A DNA stretch of 41,198 nt from Candidatus Methanoperedens sp. (GTDB taxonomy: Archaea > Halobacteriota > Methanosarcinia > Methanosarcinales > Methanoperedenaceae). Positions 30,319 to 34,694 of the stretch are shown in pieces. The stretch is taken from the NCBI GenBank assembly GCA_027460585.1, contig JAPZAP010000082.1, forward strand, positions 1 to 41,198, read 5' to 3'. The translations under genes were made by a program, and so were the position numbers. Every line of letters starts with the position of its first letter. Position 1 is the first letter of the stretch. The notes below the pieces were generated by a model. It was given only the letters and a program-made list of their open reading frames with translations, ran no database searches and was not told the DNA's origin.

Positions 30319-31054
30319 ATTATACATTGTGGGTATTGGACCGGGAGGAGCAGAGCATCTTACCAAAAAAGCCACGGATGTGCTTCTTGGATCTGAATAT
30401 ATAATCGGGAACGGCACATATCTTGACCAGATAAAGGAAATTATTCATGATAAAAAGATCATACGAAGCGGGATGGGCGGCGAAGTGGAACGCGCAAGGA
30501 AGGCTGTGGAACTTGGAAAAGACCATATTGTATCTATAATCAGCGGCGGGGATGCGAATGTGTACGGAATGGCAGGCATCGTTCTTGAGGTAGCTCAAAA
30601 AGCGGAGGATATCGAAATAGAGGTCATCCCGGGTGTAACAGCAATAAGCGCCGCAGCTTCGCTTCTTGGGGCGCCTCTTATCAATGATTTTGCGATAATA
30701 AGTTTAAGTGACCTCCTGACGCCGCAAAAAATGATCGATCAGCGTCTCAGGAGTGCGGCAGAAGCTGATTTTGTGATCGCCTTATACAATCCCAAGAGCA
30801 GGAGCCGGAAAGAGAATTTTGGACGGGCGTTGGATATCATACGAAAATACAGGACCGAGAATACACCTGTTGGGATCGTAAAGAACGCAACACGAGAAGG
30901 TGAGACGGTCATTGCCACAACGCTTGGCACTTTAATGGAATATGATAATATTATTGATATGAGTACGATAGTCCTTATCGGCAACAGCGAATCAAAACTA
31001 TGGAAAAACAGGATAATAACGCCACGAGGATACCAGAGGAAATATGAATATTGA
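30293..31054 (+). CDS. cbiH: CbiH, cobalt-factor III C17-methyltransferase
   Basis: CbiH methylates C17 and contracts the ring in the anaerobic pathway. The 253-residue protein has the methyltransferase motifs YIVGIGPGGAEHLT, ISGGDANVYGMAG and VIPGVTAISAAASLLGAPL, then the CbiH-typical DFAIISLSDLLTP and YNPKSRSR segments. It begins 26 bp inside the 3' end of cbiG and overlaps cbiC by 11 bp. No Fe-S-type C-terminal extension is present. Confidence 0.95.
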   Translation: MSPSLSHAKLYIVGIGPGGAEHLTKKATDVLLGSEYIIGNGTYLDQIKEIIHDKKIIRSGMGGEVERARKAVELGKDHIVSIISGGDANVYGMAGIVLEVAQKAEDIEIEVIPGVTAISAAASLLGAPLINDFAIISLSDLLTPQKMIDQRLRSAAEADFVIALYNPKSRSRKENFGRALDIIRKYRTENTPVGIVKNATREGETVIATTLGTLMEYDNIIDMSTIVLIGNSESKLWKNRIITPRGYQRKYEY

Positions 31055-31658
31055 TTTTGGCGCGCGAACAAGAGAAGCAAAAGAGATCAATGAGAAAAGC
31101 TGGTCGATAGTTAAGGGCATTGTGAAAGGTGATACACCCCAGGACAGGATAATACAGCGCTGTGTGATTGCCACAGGAGACACCGCATTTTCTGAACTTA
31201 TGAGGTTTAACAACGATCCTATCAAATCTGGTATTGAAGCCATCAAAAGCGCGTCTCCTATATTTACGGATATCAGGATGGCGCAGGTTGGTATCACAAA
31301 GCGGGGGCATAAATGCCAAATTCGGTGCGTTCTTGATGAAGGCCTGGAGATAGCTGAAAAAACCGGAGTTACAAGAACAAGTGCTGGCTTCATGGCGCTT
31401 GAGGATAAGCTCAATGGAGCGATAATAGTGATCGGGAATGCGCCATCTGCTGCGCTGACCGTGTGCCGGATGATAGAAGCTGGCCTTCACCCGGCGCTTC
31501 TTGTTGCAATGCCTGTGGGTTTTGTTAATGCTGCGGAATCAAAGGAGCTTGTGAGAACGCTGGATATACCGTCCATTACTTGCGTTGGGACAAGAGGCGG
31601 GACGCCGGTGGCTGTGGCGGTTGTTAATGAATTGATAGAAATCGCGTTGAGGAAATGA
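31044..31658 (+). CDS. cbiC: CbiC, cobalt-precorrin-8 methylmutase
   Basis: CbiC moves a methyl group from C11 to C12 to give cobyrinate. The 204-residue protein has the family blocks TDIRMAQVGITKRG, TRTSAGFM, AIIVIGNAPSAALTVCRMIE and MPVGFVNAAESKE, and the length is normal. One oddity: in relatives such as CobH the catalytic His lies in a RMIHACG-type motif, whereas here the aligned stretch reads RCVIATGD, with Ile where His is expected. Either this clade uses another residue, or the enzyme is altered. It is the last gene of the cbi run. Confidence 0.94.
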   Translation: MNIDFGARTREAKEINEKSWSIVKGIVKGDTPQDRIIQRCVIATGDTAFSELMRFNNDPIKSGIEAIKSASPIFTDIRMAQVGITKRGHKCQIRCVLDEGLEIAEKTGVTRTSAGFMALEDKLNGAIIVIGNAPSAALTVCRMIEAGLHPALLVAMPVGFVNAAESKELVRTLDIPSITCVGTRGGTPVAVAVVNELIEIALRK

Positions 31659-31710
31659 GGATATGCGTCATTAAACCACAGAATGCACAAATTTTTGGAA
31701 GCTCCAGATA

Positions 31711-31720
31711 ACTATAAATA
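31711..31720 (+). promoter_or_regulatory. TATA box of hairpin element 1
   Basis: ACTATAAATA lies 34 bp (first base to first base) before the 11-bp stem of hairpin element 1. The second element has ACTATATATA at exactly the same distance, so promoter and hairpin were duplicated together. Confidence 0.65.
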
Positions 31721-31740
31721 ACCCTTATACCTATTAGAAT

Positions 31741-31804
31741 GCTTGGCGAGCAGGTAACATTTTTTTACTAACCCCCACTCCCCAACCTGCTCGCCATTCT
31801 TATT
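31741..31804 (+). ncRNA. candidate small hairpin RNA, copy 1
   Basis: GGCGAGCAGGT (31745-31755) and ACCTGCTCGCC (31785-31795) form a perfect 11-bp stem around a 29-nt loop with a run of seven T and the C-rich ACCCCCACTCCCCA. T-rich sequence (ATTCTTATTATAT) follows the stem and could end transcription. With the TATA box at 31711-31720 a transcript would begin near 31741, just before the stem, giving an RNA of about 55-65 nt. No ORF fits. The stem plus loop is identical in the second copy 243 bp downstream. Confidence 0.6.
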
Positions 31805-31953
31805 ATATCCATGTATAGAATATTTGTAATATATATTTTTTTGAGAGGATACTCACTACTGTTCTGAAACTCAACTCCAAATTTTTCAGAAGTGTTCAAT
31901 ATTAATAATCTTTACACGTAATATTATAATGACGTTGAATATATACTCAAGTA

Positions 31954-31963
31954 ACTATATATA
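31954..31963 (+). promoter_or_regulatory. TATA box of hairpin element 2
   Basis: ACTATATATA lies 34 bp before the stem of the second hairpin element, matching copy 1 in position while differing slightly in sequence, which suggests conservation of function. Confidence 0.65.
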
Positions 31964-31983
31964 CCCCTTTTACCTATTAGAAT

Positions 31984-32047
31984 ACTTGGCGAGCAGGTAA
32001 CATTTTTTTACTAACCCCCACTCCCCAACCTGCTCGCCTTTCTTGTT
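31984..32047 (+). ncRNA. candidate small hairpin RNA, copy 2
   Basis: The same 11-bp stem (31988-31998 with 32028-32038) and the same 29-nt loop as copy 1, with no base change across the 51-nt hairpin. The upstream 38 bp differ at only four positions; the downstream T-rich tail (TTTCTTGTTATG) and the intervening sequence have diverged. Conservation limited to promoter plus hairpin argues for a functional RNA rather than a recent simple duplication. The C-rich loop could pair with G-rich ribosome-binding sites. Confidence 0.6.
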
Positions 32048-32102
32048 ATGTTCGTTTTGTGGGGCTAATAAATATAGCTCGAAAGCAAATAGGACAATGT
32101 GC

Positions 32103-32128
32103 AAATCCGTCAAATCCGTGTCATCCAT
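32103..32128. repeat. diverged ATCCGTG-type tandem repeat
   Basis: About three roughly 10-bp units (AAATCCGTC, AAATCCGTG, TCATCCAT) resembling the CGCGGAT repeats at 16643 and 18439, but less GC-rich. It is probably another intergenic copy of the same repeat family. Confidence 0.45.
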
Positions 32129-32270
32129 ATTTCTGATATATTAAATGATGTGTCATTATATGTCCGTTCTGTCAATAGCTCCTGGTTTATCGGGCATAAT
32201 GAATTGTTTGAAATGTAAACAGACGATCTTTTTTCGATGGAATATGCAGAAATATTTTATCTAGAGGTAA

Positions 32271-32414
32271 ATGTCATATGCTGCACTTCGATTGGAATTG
32301 AAATATATCCATAAGTGTATTGAGCAAATTACAAACCAAAAAATTGAGGGTGTAGTTATTGATCCTAAGGGTGTTGATGCGAGAATCAAAAAGATCTTAT
32401 CCACTTATCGATGA
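32271..32414 (+). CDS. small protein, 47 aa, hypothetical
   Basis: AGAGGT at 32263-32268 precedes ATG 32271 by a short spacing, and the ORF ends TGA at 32412-32414. The product (MSYAALRLELKYIHKCIEQ, then KIEGVVIDPKGVDARIKKIL) looks like protein, with an N-terminal helix and a strand-turn-helix end. No family is recognised. It could be a small gene or the tail of a lost larger one; the ribosome-binding site favours a gene. Confidence 0.45.
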   Translation: MSYAALRLELKYIHKCIEQITNQKIEGVVIDPKGVDARIKKILSTYR

Positions 32415-32446
32415 TGGGAATTTTAACACAACAAATTGGATAAAAG

Positions 32447-32470
32447 AACCCACTCCCCAACCCGCTCTTA
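32447..32470. repeat. decayed third copy of the hairpin element
   Basis: AACCCACTCCCCAACCCGCT resembles the C-rich loop and right stem of the twin hairpin elements (AACCCCCACTCCCCAACCTG). The left stem and TATA box are not recognisable here, so this is probably a degenerate remnant. Confidence 0.4.
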
Positions 32471-32627
32471 CTGACCCCAGTAGTCTCTATCTCACATTAA
32501 TAGGAATATAGTAGCACCAATAAATAATGTGTTGAATAACAGGTACTACTATTTTAATATCATCTTGTGTTAAGTGTGAAAAGATATATATCTAATGAAT
32601 CCAGTGTTACTTCAGTAGTAATAGATT

Positions 32628-33674
32628 ATGGTCGTAAGAAAAAACATCTCACTTGAGCAAATTCATTTGAAAAAACTGGACTCTTTGATACTGAAACATA
32701 ATGGTAATCTTAGCGCAGCGATAAGGGATGCAATTGATGTCACTGAGGCTTCACTTAAGCGTTATGGTTCTGTCGAAGATGCGATAATCGGAATTAAATT
32801 TGATAAAAAAGAACTGACTGGTATTGAAGAATCCATAAATTCAGGAATAAATGTTCTTTTAAGCAGACCTATTTTCCTCTGGATGCTAAAATGGGTAAGA
32901 GGAATTCCATTTGAGAACGAAAAATTTGAAGACGTGCTTGACCCCCTGAAGATTAACACAATTTCAGAACTGGATAAGCGGATAAACGATATCAGTCGTG
33001 AATCCGGCTGGAATTGCCAGATATCCATCTTTAGCATGGACGATATAAATCCTGTATCTGTGACACTTACAATTGCAAGCGATAATGAATTAATTCGTGA
33101 GTTTGTTGCTCAGCTGGCCGTGATGTTCCTTGCAAATTATAAGAGTCTCGATATAGACGTAGTTCACAAAAGGGCCACAAGTATCAGGATCGACCTTAAG
33201 ATCCGGGAAAAGGGAGCCCAACCCGTTGGAGCGATCAATTATTTCGGATATTTGAAAGATATTATGACCGAGTTAAGGTCAAAAGAAGAATTCTGGAAAA
33301 ACTTAATGGAAATCTATAGTGCTGTTAATTATAATATGGTGTCTATTTATAAAGGCAATTATCAGGATCTGCTTGCCTGCGATTTGCCCGTGGACGCCGG
33401 AATATTCGAGTCGATATCAAAAAAACATATTGCAGATATCCCGCACCAGGATTTCTTGAAACTATTAAAGAAAACTGAAGAATCCCTGCTGGTAGTGGAT
33501 AAGATCGAGATAATGAATGATGGGATCAATATTTATCACAATTATAAGAAGGAAACAGCTATAAAGAAAATCCAGGAACATTACATATCACTCCTGAGGG
33601 CGAACGGGCATGAATATGAAGCAAAATATTCCACGACTTTGATAGTGTTAAATCACGTTTGCTGTAAGAAATAA
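32628..33674 (+). CDS. ribbon-helix-helix N-terminus, 348-aa putative regulator
   Basis: The first 45 or so residues (VVRKNISLEQIHLKKLDSL, then HNGNLSAAIRDAID) look like a ribbon-helix-helix DNA-binding unit: a short basic strand followed by two helices. The remaining 300 residues form a mixed alpha/beta region of unknown type with few cysteines (one in WNCQIS, one in LACDLP, two at the extreme C-terminus, VCCKK). I infer a transcription factor with a sensing domain. The AGATATATAT stretch at 32582-32591 may be the TATA box. It is convergent with the methyltransferase gene (6-bp gap). Confidence 0.75.
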   Translation: MVVRKNISLEQIHLKKLDSLILKHNGNLSAAIRDAIDVTEASLKRYGSVEDAIIGIKFDKKELTGIEESINSGINVLLSRPIFLWMLKWVRGIPFENEKFEDVLDPLKINTISELDKRINDISRESGWNCQISIFSMDDINPVSVTLTIASDNELIREFVAQLAVMFLANYKSLDIDVVHKRATSIRIDLKIREKGAQPVGAINYFGYLKDIMTELRSKEEFWKNLMEIYSAVNYNMVSIYKGNYQDLLACDLPVDAGIFESISKKHIADIPHQDFLKLLKKTEESLLVVDKIEIMNDGINIYHNYKKETAIKKIQEHYISLLRANGHEYEAKYSTTLIVLNHVCCKK

Positions 33675-33680
33675 CGCAAA

Positions 33681-34694
33681 TTAGATAATAATAGTTTTTT
33701 TCGAAATATCTTTACATGCAGCCATGAACCGGGATGGATCCATAGCAGGGAAGGTGTCGATTAAACAAATATCACAATCCCTAACTGCCATTTCAAGTTT
33801 CCTGATATCGCCGTGATACACCATTACTTGCGCATTCCCTTTCGCACTTGCCAGTAACACGGGTTCATCACCGATCAGTTCATGATGATCCATCTTTTCA
33901 AAATTTATCTTGATCCCAAGAAGGCTTGAGTTGATCTTGAGATTCAAAATAGTGTTTTCTAATGCAGGAAGCCATGCATCGTTGAAGACTACCTTTCGTG
34001 CTCCTGCAAGAATACATAACATTCCAAGCGTTCCAGGACCGCACATCCCATCAACTACTGTTGCGTTTTCGATTTCACCTTTAAAGAATAGCTCTTCCAT
34101 TTTTGCTATTTTTGTGTTATTGAACTCTATATGGATCTTTGACTGGTTCTTATAAACGCATATTTCTCCTAATAATGAAGAGACTACATCACATCGCATA
34201 TCACACCCTGCAAGTAATTCATAGGTATGAGGCGAGCTTGTCGTGTCAAGAATGCCTATACTCTGGGATTGCCTGCCAACTCTTTTGATAACTCCTCTCA
34301 CTTCCGGTACCTGTATCATTATTTCATTTGCAATATCCTGGGTCACAGAATCCATTATAAGAACAAGGCTTTTTATACCAAGCCTTGGCGGATAAGGCAC
34401 TTTAAAACCAAAAGCAATAAGCGGCGTTCCCACATCTTTGAGCGCGGCGTCCCTGGGAAATAGCCCTTTTTCCTTTAAGATCGTAAGGACATTCCCGATT
34501 ACGAAATCCAGATGCCTCTTGCCGCATTTTGGGCATTTTCCTGAAAGTCCATTAAACTTTTCCGATATGGGGACGGATTTATTGTATCCGGGGTCGGGAG
34601 GACAGGCGCTACAAGCCATATACTTCCCGAAAATGTCAGCCAGTACTTTATCGGGGGGAAGTATGCAATCCCCGTTGCATGTAGGGCATTTCAT
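33681..34694 (-). CDS. zinc-ribbon SAM-dependent methyltransferase-like protein
   Basis: The 337-residue protein begins with a Cys-rich zinc-ribbon region (CPTCNGDC, ACSACPPDPG, then GKCPKCGKRH) and has a C-terminal Rossmann-type methyltransferase domain with motif I VVDGMCGPGTLGML, the acidic VVFNDAWLPALEN, and a later LIDTFPAMDP. The C-terminal half resembles Trm5/Met-10-type methyltransferases. The central part (about 60-190) is unassigned. The substrate could be RNA or a cofactor; nothing adjacent decides this. It lies 21 bp after a small membrane-protein gene on the same strand. Confidence 0.75.
   Translation of the reverse strand: MKCPTCNGDCILPPDKVLADIFGKYMACSACPPDPGYNKSVPISEKFNGLSGKCPKCGKRHLDFVIGNVLTILKEKGLFPRDAALKDVGTPLIAFGFKVPYPPRLGIKSLVLIMDSVTQDIANEIMIQVPEVRGVIKRVGRQSQSIGILDTTSSPHTYELLAGCDMRCDVVSSLLGEICVYKNQSKIHIEFNNTKIAKMEELFFKGEIENATVVDGMCGPGTLGMLCILAGARKVVFNDAWLPALENTILNLKINSSLLGIKINFEKMDHHELIGDEPVLLASAKGNAQVMVYHGDIRKLEMAVRDCDICLIDTFPAMDPSRFMAACKDISKKTIII

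Follow-up and report, generated by a model that had tools for sequence, protein, structure and literature searches.

Two short, almost identical stretches of DNA follow one another behind the cobalamin gene cbiC in a contig of Candidatus Methanoperedens sp. What do they encode, and what would their product do? They lie on contig JAPZAP010000082.1 (assembly GCA_027460585.1), of which we analysed a stretch of 41,198 nucleotides, referred to as the window in this text. An earlier note, made from the letters of the window, had read them as candidate small-RNA genes with promoters of their own, each forming a hairpin whose C-rich loop might cover Shine-Dalgarno (SD) sequences.

Two tandem copies in the window

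A direct-repeat comparison of the window delimited two copies of 98 nt each, 31709–31806 (copy 1) and 31952–32049 (copy 2), which are 94% identical and spaced 243 bp apart. This confirms the tandem arrangement of TATA box and hairpin described in the earlier note. Beyond approximately 31709–31806, a block-wise comparison gave a between-copy identity of only 3–6 of 10 per block, so the sequence between the copies has indeed diverged. The drop in identity on both flanks indicates that only a promoter-plus-hairpin block has been kept, whose limits lie shortly upstream of the TATA box and shortly downstream of the stem. The four differences that had been counted in the 38 bp upstream of the stem were found again when the sequence was read. 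The features of the locus are as follows (R1 and R2 are covariance models described below).

31044..31658, +: cbiC (precorrin-8X methylmutase), upstream neighbour; Pfam PF02570, E 2e-58
31713..31720, +: TATA box of copy 1, TATAAATA, read from the sequence; predicted transcription start at about 31740–31745
31744..31796, +: hairpin of copy 1, arms 31744–31755 and 31785–31796, loop 31756–31784; R1 in own genome E 1.3e-22 (a model whose input included this copy)
31760..31766, +: U7 tract in the loop of copy 1, read from the sequence
31772..31783, +: C-rich core CCCCCACTCCCC of copy 1, from the sequence and the family comparison
31797..31806, +: T-rich tail of copy 1, possible 3' end; sequence, weak evidence
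31956..31963, +: TATA box of copy 2, TATATATA, read from the sequence; spacing to the stem as in copy 1
31988..32038, +: hairpin of copy 2, 11-bp stem, 29-nt loop; R1 in own genome E 4.3e-22 (this copy was likewise part of the model's input)
32003..32009, +: U7 tract in the loop of copy 2, read from the sequence
32015..32026, +: C-rich core of copy 2, from the sequence and the family comparison
32039..32049, +: T-rich tail of copy 2, read from the sequence
32449..32467, +: partial copy, probably decayed, with the C-rich core and right arm only; direct repeat

Each copy folds into a single hairpin (−22.1 kcal/mol for copy 1, −20.8 kcal/mol for copy 2), with z-scores of −7.25 and −6.24, respectively, against 200 dinucleotide shuffles. 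The stem has 12 pairs in copy 1 and 11 in copy 2. As the earlier note had stated, the 29-nt loop is identical in both; it contains T7 and CCCCCACTCCCC, or U7 and CCCCCACUCCCC at the RNA level. From the first base of TATAAATA or TATATATA to the first G of the stem we counted 32 nt in either copy. The spacing is therefore equal, as claimed, but the figure of 34 bp given for it has to be corrected. The partial piece at 32449–32467 reached 9.0 bits with model R2 (E 3.1), which is not significant.

The Pfam match of cbiC agrees with the cobalamin genes noted before on the upstream side. The downstream gene, taken for a putative regulator, is a 348-aa ORF (32628–33674) that had no match in Pfam or NCBIfam and no relative in viral contigs, and the label of a regulator thus found no support in these searches. 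By eye only, its N-terminus looks ribbon-helix-helix-like. A 337-aa ORF on the minus strand (33681–34694) also gave no Pfam or NCBIfam match. Against Rfam 15, the window had no match at the gathering threshold; a permissive search of 31600–32600 returned four matches only, all far below threshold (E 2.2 to 9.3).

A hairpin family of the Methanosarcinia

A blast of 98 relatives and the own genome returned the same hairpin, with differing stems around the same loop. The first 34 sequences form alignment A1. Model R1 was built from matches sharing the exact core, and the invariance of the core in A1 is thus partly due to selection of the sequences. A broader covariance model, R2, was made from alignment A3, which holds 80 distinct rows, one of them antisense. 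Both models were short-calibrated and their E-values are rough. In the own genome, R1 matched at E<0.01 both window copies, C110:42131, C137:6517, C137:6942, C153:3467 and an antisense mirror of copy 1.

The covariance search in related genomes that the earlier note had proposed found the hairpin nearly everywhere in the class. Matches to R1 were present in 175 of 185 genomes of the order (E<=0.01), or 116 of 117 of good quality (completeness >=90%, contamination <=5%), and in 193 of 199 genomes of the class sample (E<=0.001), where the good-quality genomes numbered 149 of 150. Genomes of the Methanoperedens genus (g1) carry 2–23 matches each, and the other matching genomes of the order 1–7. 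R1 found no match in any of the six searched genomes of genus g25, in either of the two searched genomes of g26 and in two incomplete genomes (56% and 60%) of the order, nor in four of the g25/g26 genomes and both genomes of family f7 in the class sample. The no-match genomes of g25, g26 and f7 (e.g. G107, G108, G120, G186, G188) are small, with 0.8–1.8 Mb. Members were found in Methanothrix, Methanolobus, ANME-2 and Methanoperedens, and in genus g19, which we take to be Methanosarcina; genome G152, used below, is presumably M. acetivorans.

Outside the class the hairpin is nearly absent. All 53 matching genomes among the 294 of a phylum sample belong to the own order or class when searched with R1. 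With R2 (E<=1e-4), 84 of 392 phylum genomes matched, 83 within the order or class and a single one outside it (G328, family f11), with a weak E of 3.9e-5; 308 genomes gave no match, and the 20 of them that were listed all lie outside the class. The exact 17-mer of the loop also occurs in Bacteroides (L115), an unnamed bacterium (L122), Oscillospiraceae (L149), Phycisphaerales (L151) and Saccharothrix (L218), but these sites do not match the model and look like chance. A 3.1-kb Desulfuromonadales contig (L162) does fit the model and is probably a mis-binned archaeal contig.

For the family statistics, 296 matches were reduced to 190 members by dropping identical sequences and rows in which C did not exceed G (antisense mirrors). 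Of these members, 104 had been fetched via the 17-mer and the other 86 without use of the motif. Changes on both sides of the stem were observed in 6 of the 12 pairs in A1 and in all 12 in A3, where 92.6% of cells pair, a measure that leans towards the model since the A3 rows were fitted to it. Double-change cells numbered 173 in A3 as compared with 63 (sd 10.5) in shuffles, and the covariation score was 0.451 versus 0.202 in shuffles and 0.063–0.139 for slid structures. These comparisons indicate that the hairpin structure is under selection.

The loop keeps a simple layout. Nearly all members (188 of 190) have a run of at least four U, and in 186 this run stands ahead of the first C run. Runs of three or more C number two in 129 members, four in 29, three in 25, one in five, and none and six in one member each. 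Among the 86 members fetched without the motif, the 17-mer is kept in 29, the 12-mer CCCCCACTCCCC in 54 and CCCACTCCC in 69. Methanosarcina loops contain a repeated unit ACCCCCCACUCCCC or several CCCC blocks in series, and in a few paralogues (L249, L250) the canonical loop sits on quite different, unrelated stems. Some Methanoperedens paralogues carry an additional small hairpin ahead of the main stem and have a looser loop. In this second subfamily, a GTTCGT...ACGAAC-type hairpin lies between the TATA box and the main stem, and the loop is ACCACCCACTCCCC or shorter; the copies on C137 form a tandem array of three. Its loci in genome G000 are:

C137:6517–7019 (L241:1518–2020)
C110:42131–42203 (L240)
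C153:3467–3529 (L242)

A TATA-like 8-mer (at least 7 of 8 matches) starts 28–32 nt upstream of the stem in 134 of 190 members. At eight other offsets on the C-rich strand the number is 3–12 of 190, and on the G-rich strand it is 6 of 189 at the same offset and 0–9 at others. The family consensus is A-rich at −36 to −33 and reads TTTTTATA at −31 to −24, which is the picture of a putative archaeal BRE/TATA promoter. In a study of Methanolobus, BRE/TATA elements are described about 19–22 nt from the start (PMC5378194), a distance that would place the 5' end near the base of the stem. The T fraction after the stems is only mildly raised across the family and the 3' end is therefore less certain. 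Accordingly, the start near the stem base predicted in the earlier note agrees with the TATA position, while a T-rich 3' end is less clearly marked. The window copies have all features of the family, namely a covarying stem of 11–12 bp, a U tract, a C-rich loop and a TATA box about 30 nt upstream. An own promoter for each candidate is strongly supported by the strand-specific placement of the TATA box, and together with covariation and class-wide conservation it argues strongly for the reading of the hairpins as probable small-RNA genes.

Possible partners of the loop

At about even chances, we propose that the copies are standalone hairpin sRNA genes of a multicopy Methanosarcinia family whose loop pairs with G-rich stretches of mRNA. 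Sequence comparison supports the family, the stem, the promoter and vertical descent, and we infer transcription, action in trans and the pairing of the loop with G-rich stretches. Each copy would be a non-coding RNA gene in its own right, with a product of roughly 55–65 nt, and transcription would begin at about the base of the stem, with the TATA box some 30 nt upstream. The RNA would form one hairpin whose stem displays a long unpaired loop, in which a U tract is combined with a C-rich motif that is largely conserved (ACUAACCCCCACUCCCC, with variants). This loop would act in trans by pairing with G-rich stretches of several mRNAs, most likely near translation starts, and the U tract may be a site for an Sm-like protein. 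Several copies would add dosage, and different promoters could switch them.

We prefer pairing because multicopy C-rich-loop sRNAs with this mode of action are documented and methanogen sRNAs have been reported to occlude ribosome binding sites. The UCCC motifs of LhrC are described to pair with a G-rich site upstream of the start codon (PMC4132741), the C/U-rich loop of RepG with a G repeat (PMC8295292), and sRNAs of Methanosarcina mazei are described as typically blocking the ribosome binding site (PMC6560208). Like the family described here, LhrC1-5 are multicopy and carry a C-rich motif in unpaired loops or stretches (PMC4132741), and standalone multicopy genes with such a motif are what we found, by sequence only. 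However, LhrC-type sRNAs (LhrC1-5 and the UCCC-motif RNAs RsaE, RNAIII, SprD and FsrA) belong to Gram-positive bacteria, whereas the present family is archaeal in promoter and lineage, forms one hairpin with a single long loop, carries the motif CCCCCACUCCCC and shows no SD preference of its loops beyond base composition. RepG of Helicobacter pylori likewise presents a C/U-rich loop on a hairpin (PMC8295292), but this loop is described as part of a terminator hairpin with a known G-repeat target, while the family described here is multicopy, and neither the own genome nor 14 genomes yielded a conserved complementary site.

In 400 kb of M. nitroreducens (G015), 317 start regions served to examine the proposed covering of SD sequences by k-mer complements and by duplex energy. 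Start codons were picked by a crude rule that favours SD matches and inflates the SD signal for all loops. Complements of loop 5-mers peak at −18 to −7, with 46 and 52 per six-base bin, but this peak is not above that of shuffled (43.7, 70.6) or reversed loops (49, 96) at the 317 starts. Nor did 6- and 7-mer complements show a clear excess over shuffled or reversed loops at these starts. The largest single excess concerned 6-mers within the six bases directly preceding the start (12, versus 7.9 for shuffled and 4 for reversed loops). Duplexes of −12 kcal/mol or lower form at 52 of 317 start regions compared with 17 and 15 in the flanks; 20 shuffled loops, however, reach a mean of 69 (range 52–98) at the same starts. 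Four Methanosarcina loops gave 37, 66, 59 and 69 strong duplexes at 225 starts of G152, against shuffled means of 48.7, 73.5, 82 and 87.6. Neither test beats shuffles, and a specific anti-SD role was rejected: complementarity to SD or G-rich start regions did not exceed composition at the 317 and 225 starts, and the prediction of targets at ribosome binding sites, which had been suggested as a check, gave no excess over shuffled loops. Use of the loop on SD sequences is only generically possible.

A fixed RNA partner was not found either. The own genome (84% complete) contains seven sites complementary to the 12-mer core with at most one mismatch; three lie in members and four elsewhere. Of the latter, two are inside long open frames, two have no start codon nearby, and none lies at a recognisable ribosome binding site. 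The exact 11-mer CCCCACTCCCC is almost private to the family, with 36 of its 44 sites in 14 genomes falling in members. Neither search thus revealed a conserved complementary partner. These results would fit a protein partner as well as the pairing of a short seed with several G-rich sites in mRNAs.

As a lead on sRNA41, cdhC-region genes on two 16-kb stretches of G152 were ranked among the 225 starts. Their best ranks were 4 and 5 for one loop and 13, 11 and 2 for three others, which is not significant given the number of comparisons. The start region with GGAGCGGAGGTG (L323:11062–12469 and L324:3107–4514, around cdhC) is the one at ranks 4–5 for one member's loop; we regard it as a lead on a link to sRNA41, not as evidence.

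It is possible that the same RNA serves as a protein-binding decoy or RNP core, in which a conserved C-specific protein would be titrated by several copies and C runs, as CsrB/Rsm RNAs titrate CsrA. Loop conservation and the two negative SD tests make this reading a close second to pairing; we consider it a serious candidate, though short of an even chance. That paralogues share the core, even where it sits on unrelated stems, fits a protein partner at least as well as it fits pairing, but a seed common to many targets would look similar. Two or more C runs in most loops and the repeated ACCCCCCACTCCCC unit of Methanosarcina loops would provide several binding sites, and neither a complementary partner nor an SD preference was found in the own genome, the 14 genomes or the start-region tests. 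On the other hand, 6 of 190 members carry a single C run or none, the full 17-mer is kept in only the 29 of 86 members mentioned above, and the common precedent for C-rich loops is mRNA pairing, as described for LhrC (PMC4132741). A narrower form of the decoy, which we find doubtful but conceivable, is an archaeal counterpart of CsrB/Rsm: class-wide hairpin RNAs with own promoters would be decoys for a putative global C-binding regulator, and motif number per RNA and copies per genome would set the dose. The family resembles CsrB/RsmX-Z in being multicopy and in repeating a short motif in some members. CsrB/RsmX-Z carry GGA motifs that bind CsrA/RsmE, whereas the loops of this family are C-rich and carry C runs in place of repeated GGA motifs. 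CsrA is not expected in archaea.

Compatible with pairing as well as with the decoy, and somewhat tentative, is the idea that the family is already known in Methanosarcina by a different name, sRNA41 being one example, or corresponds to some of the cold-induced sRNAs found in Methanolobus psychrophilus, in which case only its breadth would be new. Members are indeed present in Methanolobus and in g19. In reports on these organisms, sRNA41 is described to mask ribosome binding sites within polycistronic ACDS mRNAs (PMC5867862), and M. psychrophilus to have nine 'highly conserved' cold-induced sRNAs (PMC5378194). The M. mazei sRNAs sRNA41, sRNA154 and sRNA162 are intergenic, come from the same archaeal class and are reported to mask ribosome binding sites. 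Unlike this family, sRNA162 is described with 191 nt, three stem-loops and homologues only in M. acetivorans and M. barkeri (PMC3510493), a misfit in size and range, and sRNA154 (130 nt, with an NrpRI operator), judged by its description, misfits in size or range. Our literature searches on the motif, on Methanosarcina sRNAs and on Methanoperedens small RNAs returned no title or abstract on such a family, with the primary sRNA41, sRNA154 and M. mazei dRNA-seq papers outside their coverage; a search with the exact motif returned no title on archaea among its matches. The family has apparently not been described as such, and single members may stand in published lists.

Neighbourhood and descent

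The hairpin genes recur beside the same protein genes. cbiC is the upstream neighbour at seven loci including the window (the neighbour cluster has 10 members), rtcA lies downstream at five of the seven, and the order cbiC-sRNA-rtcA is found at Methanoperedens loci. Another gene, rfcL (named at L081 and assigned at the other loci via its blast cluster), adjoins the sRNA in opposite orientation at two Methanoperedens loci (L022, L216) and at five loci of another family (L079, L080, L081, L084, L261). Further recurrent neighbours are a chaperonin, a lumazine-synthase-like gene, an ABC transporter ATPase and a pyridine-nucleotide oxidoreductase with a Fer4_20 domain. Under a crude longest-ORF rule, an open frame of at least 70 codons overlaps 27 of 190 members, and these are mostly short frames. 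Neighbouring members within 500 nt form 22 pairs at 20 loci, so that tandem doubling as in the window appears to be common, although some of these loci represent one genome under two names and the events need not be independent. The orthologous places indicate that the hairpin genes are inherited, not mobile.

In the window, a hairpin followed by T-rich sequence after cbi genes could also be a terminator, attenuator or leader element of the neighbouring genes. Yet the neighbours have mixed orientation (upstream 96 same, 80 opposite, 14 with no neighbour in the stretch covered; downstream 69, 108 and 13; n=190), the hairpin has its own TATA box, and a terminator would not need a conserved loop sequence. 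On synteny, the strand-specific promoter and neighbour orientation we rejected this explanation as very improbable. Least probable of all is a dispersed mobile or REP-like DNA repeat without RNA function, which several unlinked copies per genome and the tandem pairs might suggest, because a REP or MITE would be dispersed without orthologous location or compensatory change, whereas here TATA spacing is fixed and strand-specific, stems change in a compensatory way (A1, A3), locations are orthologous across families and the hairpin is restricted almost wholly to one class. The small-RNA reading has thus survived the possibility, raised in the earlier note, of a dispersed repeat lacking these features. 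Very probably, the copies belong to a vertically inherited, multicopy small-RNA gene family of Methanosarcinia.

Lineages of Methanosarcinia govern much of the methane cycle. The functionally studied sRNAs of methanogens in the literature consulted here come from M. mazei, and sRNA162 is described as confined to two close relatives (PMC3510493); the family reported here recurs across the class, including Methanothrix, Methanolobus, ANME-2 and Methanoperedens. Its nearly class-wide recurrence in methane-making and methane-eating archaea suggests a common layer of gene control. The presumed Methanosarcina members are genetically testable, and results obtained with them would be transferable to uncultivated methane oxidisers. 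The loop core stays while the stems drift, which points to a shared partner. If it exists, such a partner would amount to a new global regulator or regulon in these archaea.
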